Below, in pieces: positions 17,882 through 27,506 of a DNA stretch of 37,909 nucleotides (within the stretch, counting starts at the first letter, position 1; each line of letters starts with the position of its first letter). A program made the translations under genes and the position numbers. The DNA lies in the NCBI GenBank assembly GCA_022827025.1, contig JAJDTT010000300.1:1-37909 (forward strand), given 5' to 3'. Under the pieces are notes generated by a model. It was not told the DNA's origin and did no database searches. It worked only from the letters and a program-made list of their open reading frames with translations. This DNA comes from Acidobacteriota bacterium (lineage in GTDB: Bacteria; Acidobacteriota; UBA6911; RPQK01; JAJDTT01).

Positions 17882-17926
17882 GCGAAGTGGATTCCGATGA
17901 CCTGGGACGTGCTCGTCATTGAGGTG

Positions 17927-18118: not shown

Positions 18119-19330
18119 GTGGCAACGGAACGCCGACTGCTGACCCGGGTTCTGCTGAGGAATTACAAGAGTATCGCTGCTTGTGATGTCTCGCCCGCAC
18201 AAATCTCTTTTCTGGTTGGCCCCAACGGCTCGGGAAAGAGTAATTTCCTGGACGCACTCCGCTTTGTGGCGGATGCGCTCCGCTTTTCCATCGATCATGC
18301 ACTGCGCGACCGTGGCGGGATCAATGAAGTGCGGCGGCGCTCCGGCGGGCACCCTACGCACTTTGGGATTCGAGTTGAGTTCGAATTGGAAGACGTGCAA
18401 GGACACTATGCGTTCACCGTTGGGGCCAAGCCGCACGGTGGGTACACGATTCAGCGGGAAGAGTGCTATTCGGTTCAGCGCTCTGGTGGGGGTGCGCACT
18501 TCTTCAGGGTGGAGCACGGGAACGTCCGCAAGAGTACTCTTTATCCACCGCCGGCTGCCGCTTCGGATCGTCTCTATCTGGTCAACGTTTCGGGCGTGGG
18601 CGCATTCCGTTCCGTCTACGAAGCATTCTCAAGCACAGGGTTTTACAACCTGAATCCAGAGGTGATTCGGGACCTGCAATCGCCCGATCCGGGTCTGCTC
18701 CTCAGGAGGGATGGAAGCAATATTGCAGGTGTCCTGTCGAACCTCGCGAAGCGATCGCCAAGTTACAAGGAGAGGATCGAGGACTACCTTAGACAAGTCG
18801 TTCCTGGTGTCGTCAGGGTCGATCGCAAATCCGTCGGTCACAAGGAAACCCTTGAGTTCCGGCAAGAGATCCGAGGCGCGCAGCATCCCTGGCGTTTTTA
18901 TGCGAGTGGGATGTCTGATGGGACGCTGCGGGCGGTAGGCGTGTTGGTGGCGCTGTTTCAAGCCGCTGGCGACGGGAAATCAAGTCCGAGACTCGTGGGT
19001 ATTGAAGAGCCCGAGGCCGCGCTGCACCCCGCCGCCGCGGGGGTTCTCATCGACGGTCTCCGGGATGCCGGAGAGCACACGCAGATCCTCGTGACGAGTC
19101 ACAGCCCTGATCTTCTCGATAACGACGAAATTTCTGCGGACTCCATCTTCGCCGTCGTTGCAAAGCATGGAGAGAGCCATATCGGTCCCTTGGATCAAGC
19201 CGGCCGTTCGATATTGAGAGATCATCTCTATACCGCCGGTGAACTGCTCAGAATGGATCAACTCGATCCCGACCCGGATCTTTCGAATTTGAAACCCAAC
19301 CAGCTAAGGCTATTCGGGCCCGAACCCTGA
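18119..19330 (+). CDS. AAA family ATPase (OLD/RecF-like ABC ATPase), defence-type
   Basis: A 403-residue ATPase of the AAA_21/OLD-like group. Walker A is GPNGSGKS (residues 34-41, Lys40). A degenerate signature is at SGMSDGTLR (about 263). Walker B is G-I-E-E-P-E-A-A-L-H-P, and the switch histidine is in V-T-S-H-S-P. The region between holds a variable insert without coiled coil. The GTG start at 18119 follows GGAGGAG, which sits very close to it. The gene ends 3 bp before a DUF4276 gene, and the two are surely one operon. Ring or clamp ATPases of this group are typical sensor/motor subunits next to a TOPRIM nuclease (as in Gabija or PARIS-like arrangements); here the partner differs. Its lower GC than the flanks suggests transfer. 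Confidence 0.88.
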   Translation: MATERRLLTRVLLRNYKSIAACDVSPAQISFLVGPNGSGKSNFLDALRFVADALRFSIDHALRDRGGINEVRRRSGGHPTHFGIRVEFELEDVQGHYAFTVGAKPHGGYTIQREECYSVQRSGGGAHFFRVEHGNVRKSTLYPPPAAASDRLYLVNVSGVGAFRSVYEAFSSTGFYNLNPEVIRDLQSPDPGLLLRRDGSNIAGVLSNLAKRSPSYKERIEDYLRQVVPGVVRVDRKSVGHKETLEFRQEIRGAQHPWRFYASGMSDGTLRAVGVLVALFQAAGDGKSSPRLVGIEEPEAALHPAAAGVLIDGLRDAGEHTQILVTSHSPDLLDNDEISADSIFAVVAKHGESHIGPLDQAGRSILRDHLYTAGELLRMDQLDPDPDLSNLKPNQLRLFGPEP

Positions 19331-19333
19331 ACC

Positions 19334-19921
19334 GTGCGCAGAATCGCGACGATTGTTGAAGGCCATGGCGAGGTCAAGGCCGTTCCGATTTTGCTTCGCC
19401 GTCTTGCTCGGCGTCTTTCCCCCGGATCTGTCTTACAGATTCTCAGACCTATCCGCGTTGGTCGTTACAAGATATTGAAATCAGGTGAATTGGAGCGTGC
19501 AGTCGAGCTTGCTGCGCGTCAGTCGGGCGCACGTGGGTGCATCTTGATTCTGCTGGATGCCGATGACGCCTGTCCGGCGGAGCTTGGCCCCGAATTGTTG
19601 GACCGTGCGGCAGCCGCCCGGCCAGACCGTGACATCCGCGTTGTCATGGCCAAGTCCGAGTACGAAGCATGGTTCTTGGCTGCCGCGGACTCGATAGTCG
19701 GACATCGCGAAATTCGCCCACTCGATGATCGGCCATCCAATCCCGAATCGGTCAGAGATGCGAAAGGATGGTTGACTGCGCGTCTGCCGTCCGGCCAGTC
19801 CTACCGTGAGACTCTTGACCAACCCGCTCTCACGGAAATTTTCGATCTCGACGCCGCGCGGGCGGCTCCCTCATTCGATAAATTGTGGCGGGATGTGAGC
19901 TGGTTGCTCCGGACCTCTTGA
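19334..19921 (+). CDS. DUF4276 family protein, TOPRIM-like putative nuclease
   Basis: A 195-residue protein from a GTG start 3 bp after the ATPase stop. The opening I-V-E9-G-H-G-E carries the invariant TOPRIM glutamate, and L-D75-A-D77-D78 is the DxDD metal motif. A later acidic position is in K-S-E-Y-E-A-W-F. This matches the small TOPRIM-like DUF4276 family, usually encoded beside an AAA/ABC ATPase. The expected role is DNA or RNA cleavage controlled by the ATPase; activity is inferred, not seen. No signal peptide or transmembrane helix is present. Confidence 0.87.
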   Translation: MRRIATIVEGHGEVKAVPILLRRLARRLSPGSVLQILRPIRVGRYKILKSGELERAVELAARQSGARGCILILLDADDACPAELGPELLDRAAAARPDRDIRVVMAKSEYEAWFLAAADSIVGHREIRPLDDRPSNPESVRDAKGWLTARLPSGQSYRETLDQPALTEIFDLDAARAAPSFDKLWRDVSWLLRTS

Positions 19922-19980: not shown

Positions 19981-20418
19981 CTCAGGCCAAAGCTCCCTCG
20001 ATCACCTGCCCCCGCTGACCGGTGAGGCGCTCTTCCAAGCCGTGGTAGAAGTAGGTCAGCTTGGTGTGGTCCAAGCCCATCAGGTGCAGCACCGTGGCGT
20101 GCAGGTCGGAGACGTGGTAGGGGTCTTCCACCGCCTCGAAGCCCAGCTCGTCGGTGGCTCCTATGGCCTGCCCGCCCTTGACCCCGGCGCCGGCCAGCCA
20201 CATGGTGAAGCCGAGCCAGTTGTGGTCGCGGCCCGGTTTGCCGACGCCCTCGCTGGTGGGAGTTCGCCCGAACTCGCCGCCCCAGATCAGGAGCGTCTCC
20301 TCCCAGAGGCCGGTCCGCTTCAGGTCTTCGATCAGAGACGTGCTTGGCGCGCGTCGGGAAATGAGGCAGCTTGGGAGCCTAGGAGCGCCGGAGGGGCGCC
20401 GTCGACTGAAGCTCCTTT
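19981..20418 (-). pseudogene. Broken DUF1501 gene copy (internal 899-bp deletion)
   Basis: On the minus strand this is a defective duplicate of the intact DUF1501 gene at 22759-24231. Bases 19981-20337 match 22758-23114 without gaps, and I count about 15 differences in 357 bp. Bases 20338-20418 match 24014-24093 apart from one extra T after GAGCC. The 899 bp between the two blocks are gone, which breaks the frame, and the 5' end of the gene is also missing. The C-terminal about 115 residues (from [16 protein letters not shown]) still read through and end at the same stop. Most differences are silent, which suggests the copy was once under selection. Its remaining open frame extends to 20488 with unrelated sequence. 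Confidence 0.85.
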
Positions 20419-20546: not shown

Positions 20547-20575
20547 TCGACAAAACAGCGTTCTCATCCTATCAT
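20547..20575 (+). promoter_or_regulatory. Predicted promoter of the ATPase pair
   Basis: TCGACA (20547-20552) and TATCAT (20570-20575) are separated by 17 bp, each one base off the sigma-70 consensus. Transcription would begin near 20582, inside the palindrome that follows. A later TATGAT (20610-20615) lacks a well-spaced -35 box. Confidence 0.5.
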
Positions 20576-20576
20576 T

Positions 20577-20607
20577 TGCCAACGGATCTGTTGCCAACAG
20601 ATCCGTT
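20577..20607. promoter_or_regulatory. 27-bp palindrome with overlapping direct repeats (operator or leader hairpin)
   Basis: AACGGATCTGTT (20581-20592), spacer GCC, AACAGATCCGTT (20596-20607) form a perfect 12-bp dyad. The same bases also read as two 15-bp direct repeats, TTGCCAACGGATCTG and TTGCCAACAGATCCG. It lies at the predicted transcription start and 30 bp before the ATG of the first ATPase gene. It could bind a dimeric repressor or form a strong stem at the 5' end of the messenger. Confidence 0.7.
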
Positions 20608-20637
20608 TGTATGATGGGCTGCGTCGAGGAACCAATC

Positions 20638-21174
20638 ATGAAAGGACTCAGGAACGCAGGTGGCAACTGGGTCGACGGAGACCGATTTTTCGATCGAGAG
20701 GTCGAACTCGAGGCATTGAGCGAGCGTGTCAAAGAAGGAATCCACACTCTGTTGACGGCACAGCGGCGGATGGGCAAGACCAGCTTGATCCGGGAATTAC
20801 AGCGTCGACTGGCGGACGAAAGCAGCTTCGAGACCGTCTTCGTCGATCTGGAGCACTATGAGAGCCGGCTGAGGATGATTCTGGGAACCGAAAGCTACAA
20901 GACCGCACTCAGTCTGTTGACGGAGACCGCGGTAGGAGATGCTCTACTGACGTGGAAATCGATCGAGAAGTACCGCGGCGCTCATCGGTCAGGTTCTGGG
21001 GATTCGGCGGGAATCGACGATGTCCTGTACACCCTGGAGCATGATGGGTATCTGGCCGCCGACTCCGACGGTTATCGGTTCGTTTCGGGTCTGCTTGAAG
21101 ACTGGTGGAAGGCCCGGCACGGCGCGTACTTCATTCCGATCGACAAGCGAAGATCGAAACAAAGGGCGGAGTGA
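20638..21174 (+). CDS. AAA ATPase with internal loss of its core (remnant or mini-protein)
   Basis: 178 residues from ATG 20638. The N-terminus (NWVDGDRFFDREVELEAL) and P-loop AQRRMGKTS (Lys47) belong to an archaeal-type AAA/STAND ATPase family. After FVDLE (residue 72) the sequence jumps straight into what is normally the C-terminal part: HYESRLRMILG, then V-L-Y-T-L-E-H-D-G-Y-L and V-S-G-L-L-E-D-W-W-K-A-R. Family members as I remember them are about 400 residues, so roughly 220 residues with Walker B, sensor and lid are missing, apparently in frame. It cannot hydrolyse ATP in the usual way. Its stop overlaps the next ATPase start (GTGATG). Either an early pseudogene or a retained regulatory half. 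Confidence 0.75.
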   Translation: MKGLRNAGGNWVDGDRFFDREVELEALSERVKEGIHTLLTAQRRMGKTSLIRELQRRLADESSFETVFVDLEHYESRLRMILGTESYKTALSLLTETAVGDALLTWKSIEKYRGAHRSGSGDSAGIDDVLYTLEHDGYLAADSDGYRFVSGLLEDWWKARHGAYFIPIDKRRSKQRAE

Positions 21175-22757
21175 TGAAAACACCTGCCAAGAAATACAAT
21201 CCGGGGTTCCTGACCGACGACGAACTGGTGACATCCTTCTGTGTGCGGACCAACGAATTTGAATCGATCATCGAGACTCTGAGCGAGAGCACCGGAAACT
21301 CGAATCCGCACATGATCGTCATCGGTCCACGTGGCAGCGGCAAGACCCACCTGTTGCTGCGGGTCGCGGCCGAGATACGGCGCAAGTCCGAATTGGAGCG
21401 GTTCTTTCCCGTCGTATTCGCTGAAGAGAGCTACGAGGTCACGACCTGCGGCGAATTTTGGTTGGAATGCCTTGGACGTCTCGCCGACCAGACAGCCCAC
21501 ATGGATGGTGTCGAACTGCACCTGCACCGTACGTGGGAAGACCTGAGAACCAGTCAAGACGACCGCATATTGGCGGAGCGTTGTCTCGGGGTGCTCCTGG
21601 ATTTCGCCGACCGTCACAGCCGACGCTTGGTGCTGGTGGTCGAGAATCTGAACACGTTGTTCGCGGACATGCTCGACCCGGACGCCGGATGGCAGTTGAG
21701 AAAGACGTTCCAGACCGAGCCCCGGATTTTTATTCTCGGGAGCGCCACCAGCCGGTTCGAGGAGATCGACCGTCCCGACAAGGCTCTCTATGCGTTCTTT
21801 CGGACGATCACACTGCATCCACTCAACACGAGTGAGTGCGCCGTCCTATGGCAGACGGTATCCGGAGAAACCGTCACGTCGCGGGCCATAAGACCGCTTC
21901 AGATCCTCACTGGCGGCAACCCCCGCTTGGTCACCATTGTCGCCCGGTTCGGAGCGGACGAATCACCAGGTGAACTTATGGGGAACTTGCTCGATCTTGT
22001 CGATGATCACACGGAGTATTTCAGGAGCCATCTTGACTCACTGCCGGCCCAGGAACGACGTGTCTACCTGGCACTTGCCAAGCTGTGGAAGCCGGCAGCC
22101 ACGAAGGAGATCGCTGACTTGGCCCGCCTTGATACGAACCGCTGCAGTGCTCTGCTCCGGCGTCTCGTCCAGCGCGGAGCGGTGACCGTCGAAGGTGGAA
22201 CCGCCCGGCGCAGGCAATACTATTTGACCGAGCGTCTGTACAACATCTACTACCTGCTCCGCCGAGGCGCCGGAGGGTCCTCCACGGTGGAGACGCTGAT
22301 TCAGTTCATGGCGTCCTACTATTTGCCTGTCGAGCAGCCGGACACAGGTGAGGGGATCGCGGCCGAGGCCGGATCTACCTATCACGAGAGAAGTAATACC
22401 GTCCGGTCCAATATCGGACTTCTTCCTGGGTCCCATTCTCTCGACTCGTATTCCGACCCACGCCCAGCGGATGTGAATTGTGTCAGTGAGAATAATGTCG
22501 AGTCATTGCTTGCGCACGTTGCGGCGATGAACAGTCTTCCGGTGGGTTGCGTGGCGCGGTTGATCCGATATTCCGCTGTGGCTGGCCCCGCCCGCGCGCT
22601 CGAATTATTTCAAGATTCACTGTGCGCAGACCCGCTGCTGCCTCTCATTACGGCGTTGGAGCAGATGAATGGCCGTTCGCCCCGGGTCGCGCGGGAAATC
22701 CAAGAGATTGCGGCTGATATCCGTCAGCAACTAGAGCGAGAGATGGCTCTCGCCTGA
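21174..22757 (+). CDS. AAA/STAND-like ATPase with winged-helix region (second of pair)
   Basis: 527 residues from the ATG at 21174, which overlaps the previous stop. A longer open frame upstream is not used. Walker A is IGPRGSGKTH (Lys57). The Walker B region reads LVLVVENLNTLF, with Glu in place of the usual Asp pair. A sensor-like segment follows at F-I-L-G-S-A-T-S-R-F. Residues about 290-365 look like a winged helix (E-I-A-D-L-A-R-L-D...LLRRLVQRGAV) ending in the family's L-T-E-R-L-Y-N-I-Y-Y-L-L-R-R-G. The last 150 residues are helical. This family is usually found beside the preceding type of ATPase, so the two likely form one system. The stop is one base from the stop of the convergent DUF1501 gene. 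Its biological role is unknown; a defence or conflict role is inference. Confidence 0.8.
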   Translation: MKTPAKKYNPGFLTDDELVTSFCVRTNEFESIIETLSESTGNSNPHMIVIGPRGSGKTHLLLRVAAEIRRKSELERFFPVVFAEESYEVTTCGEFWLECLGRLADQTAHMDGVELHLHRTWEDLRTSQDDRILAERCLGVLLDFADRHSRRLVLVVENLNTLFADMLDPDAGWQLRKTFQTEPRIFILGSATSRFEEIDRPDKALYAFFRTITLHPLNTSECAVLWQTVSGETVTSRAIRPLQILTGGNPRLVTIVARFGADESPGELMGNLLDLVDDHTEYFRSHLDSLPAQERRVYLALAKLWKPAATKEIADLARLDTNRCSALLRRLVQRGAVTVEGGTARRRQYYLTERLYNIYYLLRRGAGGSSTVETLIQFMASYYLPVEQPDTGEGIAAEAGSTYHERSNTVRSNIGLLPGSHSLDSYSDPRPADVNCVSENNVESLLAHVAAMNSLPVGCVARLIRYSAVAGPARALELFQDSLCADPLLPLITALEQMNGRSPRVAREIQEIAADIRQQLEREMALA

Positions 22758-22758
22758 C

Positions 22759-24231
22759 TCAGGCCAAAGCTCCTTCGATCACCTGGCCCCGCTGCCCCGT
22801 GAGGCGCTCCTCCAGGCCGTGGTAGAAGTAGGTCAGCTTGGTGTGGTCCAAGCCCATCAGGTGCAGCACCGTGGCGTGCAGGTCGGAGACGTGGTAGGGG
22901 TCTTCCACCGCCTCGAAGCCCAGCTCGTCCGTGGCGCCGATGGCCTGCCCTCCCTTGACCCCGGCGCCGGCCAGCCACATGGTGAAGCCGAGCCTGGTGT
23001 GGTCGCGGCCCGGTTTGCCGAGGCCCTCGCTGGTGGGCGTTCGCCCGAACTCGCCGCCCCAGATCAGGAGCGTCTCCTCCCAGAGTCCGGTCCGCTTCAG
23101 GTCTTCGATCAGAGCCGCCATGGGCTGGTCGGTCTCGTATCCATGGAGCGAGTGGTTGTTGATGCAGTCCACGTGTCCGTCCCAGGTTTCGGGTCCGTGC
23201 CCGCCGCCCGAGTAGAGTTGAACGAAGCGGACCCCCTTCTCGATGAGCCGCCGCGCGATGAGGCACTTGCGGCCGTAGTCGGCGGTGAGCCGGTTGTTGA
23301 GTCCGTACATCTCCCGGGTCTTCTCGCTCTCCTGCTCGACGTCCACCACCTCGGAGGCCGTGGTCTGCATCCGGTACGCCAGCTCGTAGGAGTGGATCCG
23401 GGCGGCCAGTTCCGACTCCTGCTCACGGTCTTTCAGGTGCTTCCGGTTCAGGCGCTGCAGCAGGTTCAAAGAGTTGCGCTGGGTCCGGGGGCTGACGTCC
23501 TCCGGCGTCGCCAGGTTCAGGAGGGGATTACCCTTGCTTCTGAACAGGGTCCCCTGGAAGGCGGCCGGCATGAAGCCGGCGCTCCAGTTGGAGGTCCCGC
23601 CGATGGGTCCGCCGCGCGGATCGGTCATGACCACGAAACTGGGCAGGTCGTTGCCCAGCGTGCCCAGACCGTAGCTGAGCCAAGAGCCCAGGGAGGGTCT
23701 CCCGATGATGACGTTGCCCGTGTTCATCTGGATGTTGCCCGAGGCGTGGGCCGCCGTGTCGGTGTACAGGGAGCGAATCACGCAGAGGTCGTCGGCGAAG
23801 CGGGAGAGGTGGGGGTAGACGCTGCTGATCTCCAGGCCGCTCTGGCCGTGATTCTTGAACTCGAACGGAGATTGCATCAGGTAGCCGATGGGACGGTTGT
23901 TGGATCCCACCTTCACCTTGCCCTTGTAGGGGGTGCCGTTGTACTTGGTCAGCGCCGGCTTGGGATCGAACAGGTCGACGTGGCTGGGCCCGCCGTTCAT
24001 GAAGAAGAAAATGACGTGCTTGGCGCGCGTCGGGAAATGAGGCAGCTTGGGAGCCAGGAGCGCCGGAGGGGCGCCGTCGACTGAAGCTCCTTTCAGTTGT
24101 CCGAAGAATCCGTCTGTAGAGAGGAGGTCGATGAGGGCCAGCCCGGCGAATCCTCCGCCGGTCTCCCACAAGAACTCCCGCCGCGTCCGGCCACAGGGCG
24201 GATTGTTGCGTGTGAACCGCTTCGTCTGCAT
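22759..24231 (-). CDS. DUF1501 family Tat-exported protein (second copy, intact)
   Basis: 490 residues. The Tat motif R-T-R17-R18-E-F-L is followed by a hydrophobic run. The body has the DUF1501 pattern: FFFMNGGPSHVDLFDPKP, Q-S-P-F-E-F-K, then W-G-G-E-F-G-R-T-P and G-R-D-H near the end. It lies 39 bp after the PSD1 gene on the same strand and is its partner. Compared with the first DUF1501 gene (3665-5107) it is a diverged paralogue, not a recent copy. A recent partial copy does exist at 19981-20418. Confidence 0.92.
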   Translation of the reverse strand: MQTKRFTRNNPPCGRTRREFLWETGGGFAGLALIDLLSTDGFFGQLKGASVDGAPPALLAPKLPHFPTRAKHVIFFFMNGGPSHVDLFDPKPALTKYNGTPYKGKVKVGSNNRPIGYLMQSPFEFKNHGQSGLEISSVYPHLSRFADDLCVIRSLYTDTAAHASGNIQMNTGNVIIGRPSLGSWLSYGLGTLGNDLPSFVVMTDPRGGPIGGTSNWSAGFMPAAFQGTLFRSKGNPLLNLATPEDVSPRTQRNSLNLLQRLNRKHLKDREQESELAARIHSYELAYRMQTTASEVVDVEQESEKTREMYGLNNRLTADYGRKCLIARRLIEKGVRFVQLYSGGGHGPETWDGHVDCINNHSLHGYETDQPMAALIEDLKRTGLWEETLLIWGGEFGRTPTSEGLGKPGRDHTRLGFTMWLAGAGVKGGQAIGATDELGFEAVEDPYHVSDLHATVLHLMGLDHTKLTYFYHGLEERLTGQRGQVIEGALA

Positions 24232-26951: not shown

Positions 26952-27506
26952 ATGACTCCGGGGCGGGCAACTCTGGTTGGACTGATGGACGTCTATCTAC
27001 GAGGCTTGTTGGATCCGTTCGTGACGCTGCTCGAGGTCCACAAGCTCATGTACTTCATGCAGGAAGCTGGAGAACGCTTGCGACTCAGTTATGTGAAAGG
27101 GCTCTACGGACCCTATGCGTCAAATCTGCGCCACGTTCTGCTCAAGGTTGAGGGGCACTACGTCTCTGGATATACCGGCGGGGACGATACGCCCGGTATC
27201 CACCTTGAGCTGGTCGCCGGCGCAATTGAGGACGCCACTCGTTATCTGGACGGGTATCCTGCCACGCAGCAGCGTTTCAACAAGGTCCGGCAACTGGTCG
27301 AGGGGTTCGAGTCTTCATACGGGCTGGAGTTGTTGGCCACAGTCCACTGGGTCGTCACCCGGGAGGAGGCACAGACCTTTGCCGATGTGATTGAGCGCAC
27401 CTACGCATGGAACGACCGGAAGGAGCAGTTCACTCAGCGGCAAATCAAGATCGCATACGAAACACTTGCGGATCAGGGCTGGTTCGCGAATCCTGACTCG
27501 GCATAG
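26952..27506 (+). CDS. Detached C-terminal domain of a DarG-type antitoxin
   Basis: 184 residues from ATG 26952, preceded by AAGGA. A GTG at 26865 gives 29 more low-complexity residues. The whole protein matches what I remember of the C-terminal half of DarG, the antitoxin of the DNA ADP-ribosyltransferase DarT: G-R-A-T-L-V-G-L-M-D-V-Y-L, L-L-E-V-H-K-L-M-Y-F-M-Q-E-A-G, G-L-Y-G-P-Y-A, and near the end A-T-V-H-W-V-V-T-R-E. In normal DarG a macro domain of about 150 residues precedes it and removes ADP-ribose from DNA; none is encoded here, and no DarT follows. The C-terminal domain is the part thought to bind and block DarT directly. So this may be a free toxin-blocking protein or a relic. GC is lower than the flanks. 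Confidence 0.78.
   Translation: MTPGRATLVGLMDVYLRGLLDPFVTLLEVHKLMYFMQEAGERLRLSYVKGLYGPYASNLRHVLLKVEGHYVSGYTGGDDTPGIHLELVAGAIEDATRYLDGYPATQQRFNKVRQLVEGFESSYGLELLATVHWVVTREEAQTFADVIERTYAWNDRKEQFTQRQIKIAYETLADQGWFANPDSA

Follow-up and report, generated by a model that had tools for sequence, protein, structure and literature searches.

In STAND NTPases an NBD, a helical domain and a winged helix are followed by a repeat sensor, and the Walker B motif has the consensus hhhhD-[D/E]. Generally, at least one effector domain is present at a protein end (PMC6468293). Sensors built from TPRs are known in the STANDs MalT and PH0952, and the Avs/bNLR proteins are antiphage STANDs. Here we examined a pair of genes which resembles these systems in part. 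The window, a stretch of 37,909 nucleotides from an Acidobacteriota bacterium, contains genes A and B, which a first-pass annotation had proposed as an uncharacterised conflict operon starting at 20547 and consisting of two P-loop ATPase reading frames that overlap by one base. The overlap was confirmed: the TGA stop of A (21172-21174) and the ATG start of B (21174-21176) have one base in common and the frames are co-directional. The likely start of gene A is the ATG at 20638, not 20547, and A is not a complete ATPase as its Walker B motif is lost. The features of the pair in the window are as follows.

20580..20593, plus strand: operator-like unit 1, CAACGGATCTGTTG, from a motif search.
20595..20608, plus strand: operator-like unit 2, CAACAGATCCGTTT, with one mismatch and at a 15-bp step from unit 1.
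20638..21174, plus strand: remnant of gene A, 178 aa, an N-terminal part with Walker A joined in frame to a C-terminal winged-helix part.
20843..20852, plus strand: deletion junction TCGATCTGGA, from comparison with the intact congener locus L013.
21174..22757, plus strand: gene B, 527 aa, an AAA_16/ORC-like NTPase with winged helix, most of the TPR region deleted.
22330..22480, plus strand: segment of gene B with no clear match, replacing a TPR region of about 766 nt in the intact homologue.

The main finding is the family to which this pair belongs, not the damaged copy in the window. With A as a query, 84,980 species genomes (GTDB) were scanned and 169 relatives were obtained, of which the best 80 loci were read. 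B was directly downstream of A in 80/80. Clustering of the 1166 ORFs of these loci yielded no third conserved operon gene; besides A and B, shared neighbours were confined to a handful of loci, and the genes following B vary. In the loci read the pair is an obligate, self-contained two-gene unit. According to record titles the best 80 relatives represent at least 11 phyla. The distribution is patchy, e.g. A was present in 6 of 396 genomes of the window's own phylum. A tree of the relatives clustered only partially by phylum, with 18 label changes against a minimum of 10. Horizontal transfer of the module across phyla is the likely reading of these sequence comparisons; misbinning (e.g. L025/L026) or paralogy may also contribute to the pattern. 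Most record names point to symbionts of marine sponges as carriers. Names of the jk18x/p16x type account for 37/80 loci; the jk18x bins originate from Ircinia sponges (PMC9531527), and by the common accession series the p16x bins presumably have the same origin. Six loci belong to the Aplysina aerophoba bin series (MPNC according to PMC5649159, the others probably so), and a further 20 have other names that appear to be of sponge type. Twelve are on chromosomes without a named source and five look non-sponge. The pair had no match in IMG/VR or phage records and a single weak one in plasmid records (22.6% identity); carriage by phages or plasmids was rejected on these grounds.

Intact A and B were then compared with the described systems. 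A model of intact A (L028, pLDDT 91) had its best PDB fold matches in 2qen, Cdc6/Orc1 (2qby) and 2fna. The ATPase motifs are conserved in 48 A proteins and the Walker B D-E is invariant. Thus A shares the fold and the order of ATPase and winged helix with archaeal ATPase_2 proteins (2qen, 2fna) and Orc1/Cdc6. It differs in that it is from bacteria and has B as its partner at every locus read; moreover, the intact congener A scores 28.5 bits against Pfam ATPase_2, below the gathering cut-off of 33.2. A is best read as an ATPase of the ORC/ATPase_2 type whose winged helix is C-terminal. Intact B consists of an NTPase, a winged helix and a TPR array; profile searches recognised no other domain. 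The model of intact B (L028) had a pLDDT of 81 and a pTM of 0.47, with the domain arrangement uncertain and low confidence between winged helix and TPRs. The best solved fold was 6mfv, a STAND with a TPR sensor, then Orc1, Apaf-1 and CED-4 and, at a lower rank, EfAvs5 and Avs4; TM-scores were low. In 46 B proteins a P-loop, the sequence E-N at the Walker B position (invariant E155-N156) and a GGxPRL motif are conserved. B has the domain order, the 6mfv fold and the GxP-like motif in common with PH0952 and MalT. In contrast to these, it is accompanied by an obligate second ATPase encoded upstream and a dedicated cis array, has E-N at Walker B and a tandem array of 43-aa units, and no effector or LuxR domain is recognised. 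Although NBD, helical domain and winged helix are followed by a repeat sensor as in a STAND, we do not file B as a strict STAND because Walker B deviates from the consensus and because profile searches recognised no effector domain on B (or on A). The module likely works like a STAND.

The TPR array is variable. In some B proteins up to 13.6 copies of a 129-bp unit follow one another in tandem. Between several related B proteins the difference is a whole number of 43-aa units (3.0, 7.0, 2.0 and 8.0): L040 and L043 are 3.0 units apart while their NTPase parts are 98% identical, L055 and L065 differ by 7.0, and L095 and L099 by 8.0. Array differences in other B pairs are non-integral.

Comparison with defence ATPase models, as suggested in the first-pass annotation, supported the view that the pair is uncharacterised: intact A and B match no PADLOC system profile and no Avs profile over the whole protein. 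Nor did a check for a known non-defence family turn up a family-wide match. Profile searches found no curated family covering intact A or intact B over full length, and literature searches found no description matching the pair. With Avs/bNLR proteins B shares an NTPase with a repeat sensor and the fold matches to EfAvs5 and Avs4, yet the pair is a two-gene unit without nuclease, SIR2 or other effector domain, and no Avs profile comes close to the cut-off (Avs2 E 0.09 for the truncated window copy only, none for intact proteins). A recurrent weak PADLOC match of A and B is the MADS ATPase mad8 (P-loop region, E ~1e-4 to 1e-7); however, coverage is partial and the remaining MADS genes are not recurrent near the pair. 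Membership in MADS, DS41, DS8, PtuA, Avs2, ORC1/Cdc6 or Sll1717 families was rejected, all matches being weak and mostly limited to the P-loop.

The strong palindrome in front of the pair, pointed out previously, was verified (13-bp arms, 1-nt centre, 20581-20607). It consists of a 15-bp unit, CAAC-N6-GTTG-N, present twice in tandem at a 15-bp step. With at most one mismatch the unit is present in 82 of 83 regions upstream of A (shuffles: mean 4.2, maximum 9), and most regions contain at least two copies at 15-bp steps. Across the 1.39 Mb of loci, tandem sites number 105 immediately before A and 10 at other places. Among the latter, one directly precedes a solo B homologue without gene A (L056:2-2452, minus strand), two are near a B remnant (L033), two are before a second pair (L038), and some have neither A nor B nearby. 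The exact tandem pattern occurs in the window's own genome at 20580-20607 only; in G000, G002 and G003 it was found solely before pairs, and in G001, a congener without the pair, it was not found. Viral contigs contained no three-copy motif. Even before the distant A of L128, related units are present, in this case with a 16-bp step; L129 has none. Because the array is situated about 30-100 bp before A, a putative operator is the simplest reading. Probably, A and/or B bind there and the module regulates itself. Tandem sites with no intact pair behind them were noted at L033:15115, L047:14007, L061:664, L095:19416 and G189:C22:177463, the last being a second site in G189 with no A or B within 1.5 kb. 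Apart from L033 with its B remnant nearby, these may be relics or further targets.

How was the window copy damaged? The intact pair in congener G003 (L013, G003:C42; A of 422-431 aa, B of 732 aa) is at the same place and its flanks are about 90% identical on both sides. Compared with intact A (L013:7855-9123), the window gene is about 730 nt shorter with the frame kept. The central ATPase core is missing, about 249 residues including the Walker B D-E; Walker A is the sole ATPase motif left, and Pfam still recognised the P-loop part of ATPase_2/AAA. In L013 the 10 nt of TCGATCTGGA occur at each end (8060 and 8792) of the segment that the window lacks, and the window junction has a single copy. 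The deletion may be an assembly error; against this, a genuine loss mediated by the 10-nt repeat agrees with its position at either end. Gene A is likewise broken in a second pair of a congener (G002:C350, deletion of about 1 kb), and at seven loci (L045, L060, L067, L074, L088, L091, L094) it is split into two open frames, by sequencing error or real inactivation. In window gene B about 615 nt (about 205 aa) of the TPR region are gone and a 151-nt stretch is in place. Pfam recognised AAA_16 and a stretch resembling ORC-CDC6, together with a TrmB winged helix (residues 293-349, E 3e-5), which bears out the winged-helix region assigned to B in the first pass.

For these reasons the window copy is probably inactive, and we consider it quite likely that it is a decaying pseudo-operon without present function, which is compatible with our reading of the intact family. 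The loss of Walker B in A and of most TPRs in B, the deletion in the adjoining second DUF1501 copy and the broken A at G002:C350 point in this direction. On the other hand, both frames are still open and dN/dS is 0.12-0.32 for the aligned remaining parts, although this may reflect mostly selection predating the deletions. Between the window (20638-22757) and L013, dS was 0.64 for the A N-terminus, 0.73 for the NTPase part of B and 0.19 for the A C-terminus, and 0.25-0.35 for flanking genes, i.e. below the first two. Such a mosaic fits exchange by recombination, judged from the sequences.

The chromosomal site itself exchanges its contents. Its left border is a gene ending at 17882, its right border a DUF1501 gene, and between them the window contains HEC-01 and the ATPase pair in tandem.

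18119..19330, plus strand: HEC-01A, OLD/RecF-like ATPase, alternative cargo of the site (PADLOC PDLC04178, E 7.1e-161).
19334..19921, plus strand: HEC-01B, DUF4276 (PADLOC PDLC04196, E 1.9e-76).
19981..20418, minus strand: remnant of a second DUF1501 copy between the two cargoes, internal deletion of about 899 nt.
22759..24231, minus strand: intact DUF1501 gene, conserved right border (profile match and congener comparison).

The adjoining ATPase and TOPRIM module noticed earlier is this ATPase-DUF4276 pair, HEC-01, a PADLOC candidate system. In a congener HEC-01 takes this site, and in the window it adjoins the pair, but it is unrelated (OLD-like ATPase plus DUF4276). G003 has the ATPase pair alone, and G002 (L116, G002:C528) has HEC-01A with a broken frame and a truncated HEC-01B but no pair. 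Thus in three congeners one conserved site is occupied by alternative (candidate) defence cargo, as in an accessory defence hotspot. DUF1501 paralogues are very numerous, with 60-71 DNA matches per genome (G000-G003). The antitoxin remnant reported nearby was identified as the C-terminal domain of DarG alone (26958-27506, E 5e-48, model positions 163-328); it lies in window segment 26878-27512, which is missing from L013.

Do the loci at large associate with defence? PADLOC identified as nearest neighbours JetA (L042, L087), HmaB (L068), HmaC (L037), a type IIG R-M enzyme (L063), DSR2 (L092), PDC-S39 (L071) and a methyltransferase (L098); PtuA adjoins the B remnant at L033. Matched families numbered 170 near the pair and 72 in the far flanks of the same loci, which served as the control. 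The enrichment is only suggestive because these far flanks contain defence genes, too. Housekeeping genes flank many loci, yet neighbourhood analysis revealed no widely recurrent neighbour other than A and B, and a conserved housekeeping context was not family-wide. A variable downstream effector was considered and rejected; the downstream genes examined were parts of other systems, housekeeping or unrelated.

We propose, with a probability of about 0.5, that the pair is a self-regulated, horizontally shared, STAND-like two-ATPase sensor-switch module which probably acts in intracellular conflict. A and/or B would bind the palindromic array before A and the module would control itself. The TPR array of B would bind a ligand, perhaps a product of a phage or mobile element or some other danger signal, upon which the B switch would open and multimerise. 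Multimerised B would then engage A and evoke a cell response in intracellular conflict or defence. The window copy lies at an accessory-gene site next to HEC-01 and was probably inactivated by internal deletions. For the original proposal of an uncharacterised conflict operon this means that the novelty, the obligate pairing, the patchy cross-phylum spread, the alternation with HEC-01 and the defence neighbours speak in its favour; missing are a recognisable effector and, probably, an active copy in the window. Against a conflict role also count the many loci beside housekeeping genes, the limited control for the defence neighbours, the near absence from viral and plasmid records and the E-N at Walker B of B.

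Alternatives were considered. The pair may be ligand-responsive transcription regulators of the MalT type, governing themselves and sometimes adjacent metabolism, symbiosis or defence genes, and not a defence system. This agrees with the STAND-TPR architecture of MalT and PH0952 (PMC6468293), the tandem palindromic sites, the match of the B winged helix to MarR/TrmB and the Wadjet JetA gene directly after B on the same strand (L042:13002-14432, L087:13654-15171). We regard it as rather doubtful since, within the three congeners, exact copies of the tandem pattern are found only before the pair, a LuxR or other output domain is missing and no recurrent neighbour is available for control. A domesticated replication or mobile-element module, in which ORC/Cdc6-like initiators and an iteron-like array spread selfishly, appears unlikely. 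Both folds do match Orc1/Cdc6 on origin DNA, the 15-bp tandem repeats are iteron-like and the family crosses phyla; but several separate chromosomal loci exist per genome, the 80 loci contain no recurrent transposase, integrase or replication partner, plasmids and phages essentially lack the pair, and the TPR sensor would be left unexplained. Very unlikely is that B is a 'eukaryote-like' TPR protein directed at the sponge host. Such proteins are enriched in sponge symbionts and have been proposed to act on the host (PMC8163846, PMC9531527), and most homologues are in sponge-type MAGs. However, B is fused to an NTPase switch and its gene usually overlaps a second ATPase gene, homologues are also in non-sponge-looking MAGs (L080, L082, L083, L096), and few lineages encode secretion systems (PMC8163846).

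The sensor-switch reading can be extended tentatively. The pair would be an undescribed two-gene, immune-like system, widespread in marine symbionts, composed of an ORC-like ATPase and a STAND-like ATPase whose TPR array varies by whole 43-aa units; a 15-bp tandem operator would be dedicated to it. In that case some of the TPR 'eukaryote-like proteins' known from sponge symbionts would serve as its sensor subunits and would not be aimed at the host. Sponge symbionts are reported to carry many defence genes and many TPR 'eukaryote-like' proteins, and these proteins are usually explained as host-handling tools (PMC8163846, PMC5649159, PMC9531527). The module would connect the two: it crosses phyla, lies partly among defence genes and joins a modular TPR sensor to an NTPase switch. 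Operator binding, or a reporter, can be approached directly through the conserved 15-bp array, and specificity through the changes by 43-aa units. If the module acts in defence, the STAND-like systems would gain a two-ATPase design; should it be a regulator, a recurrent gene pair annotated merely as 'ATPase' would be explained.
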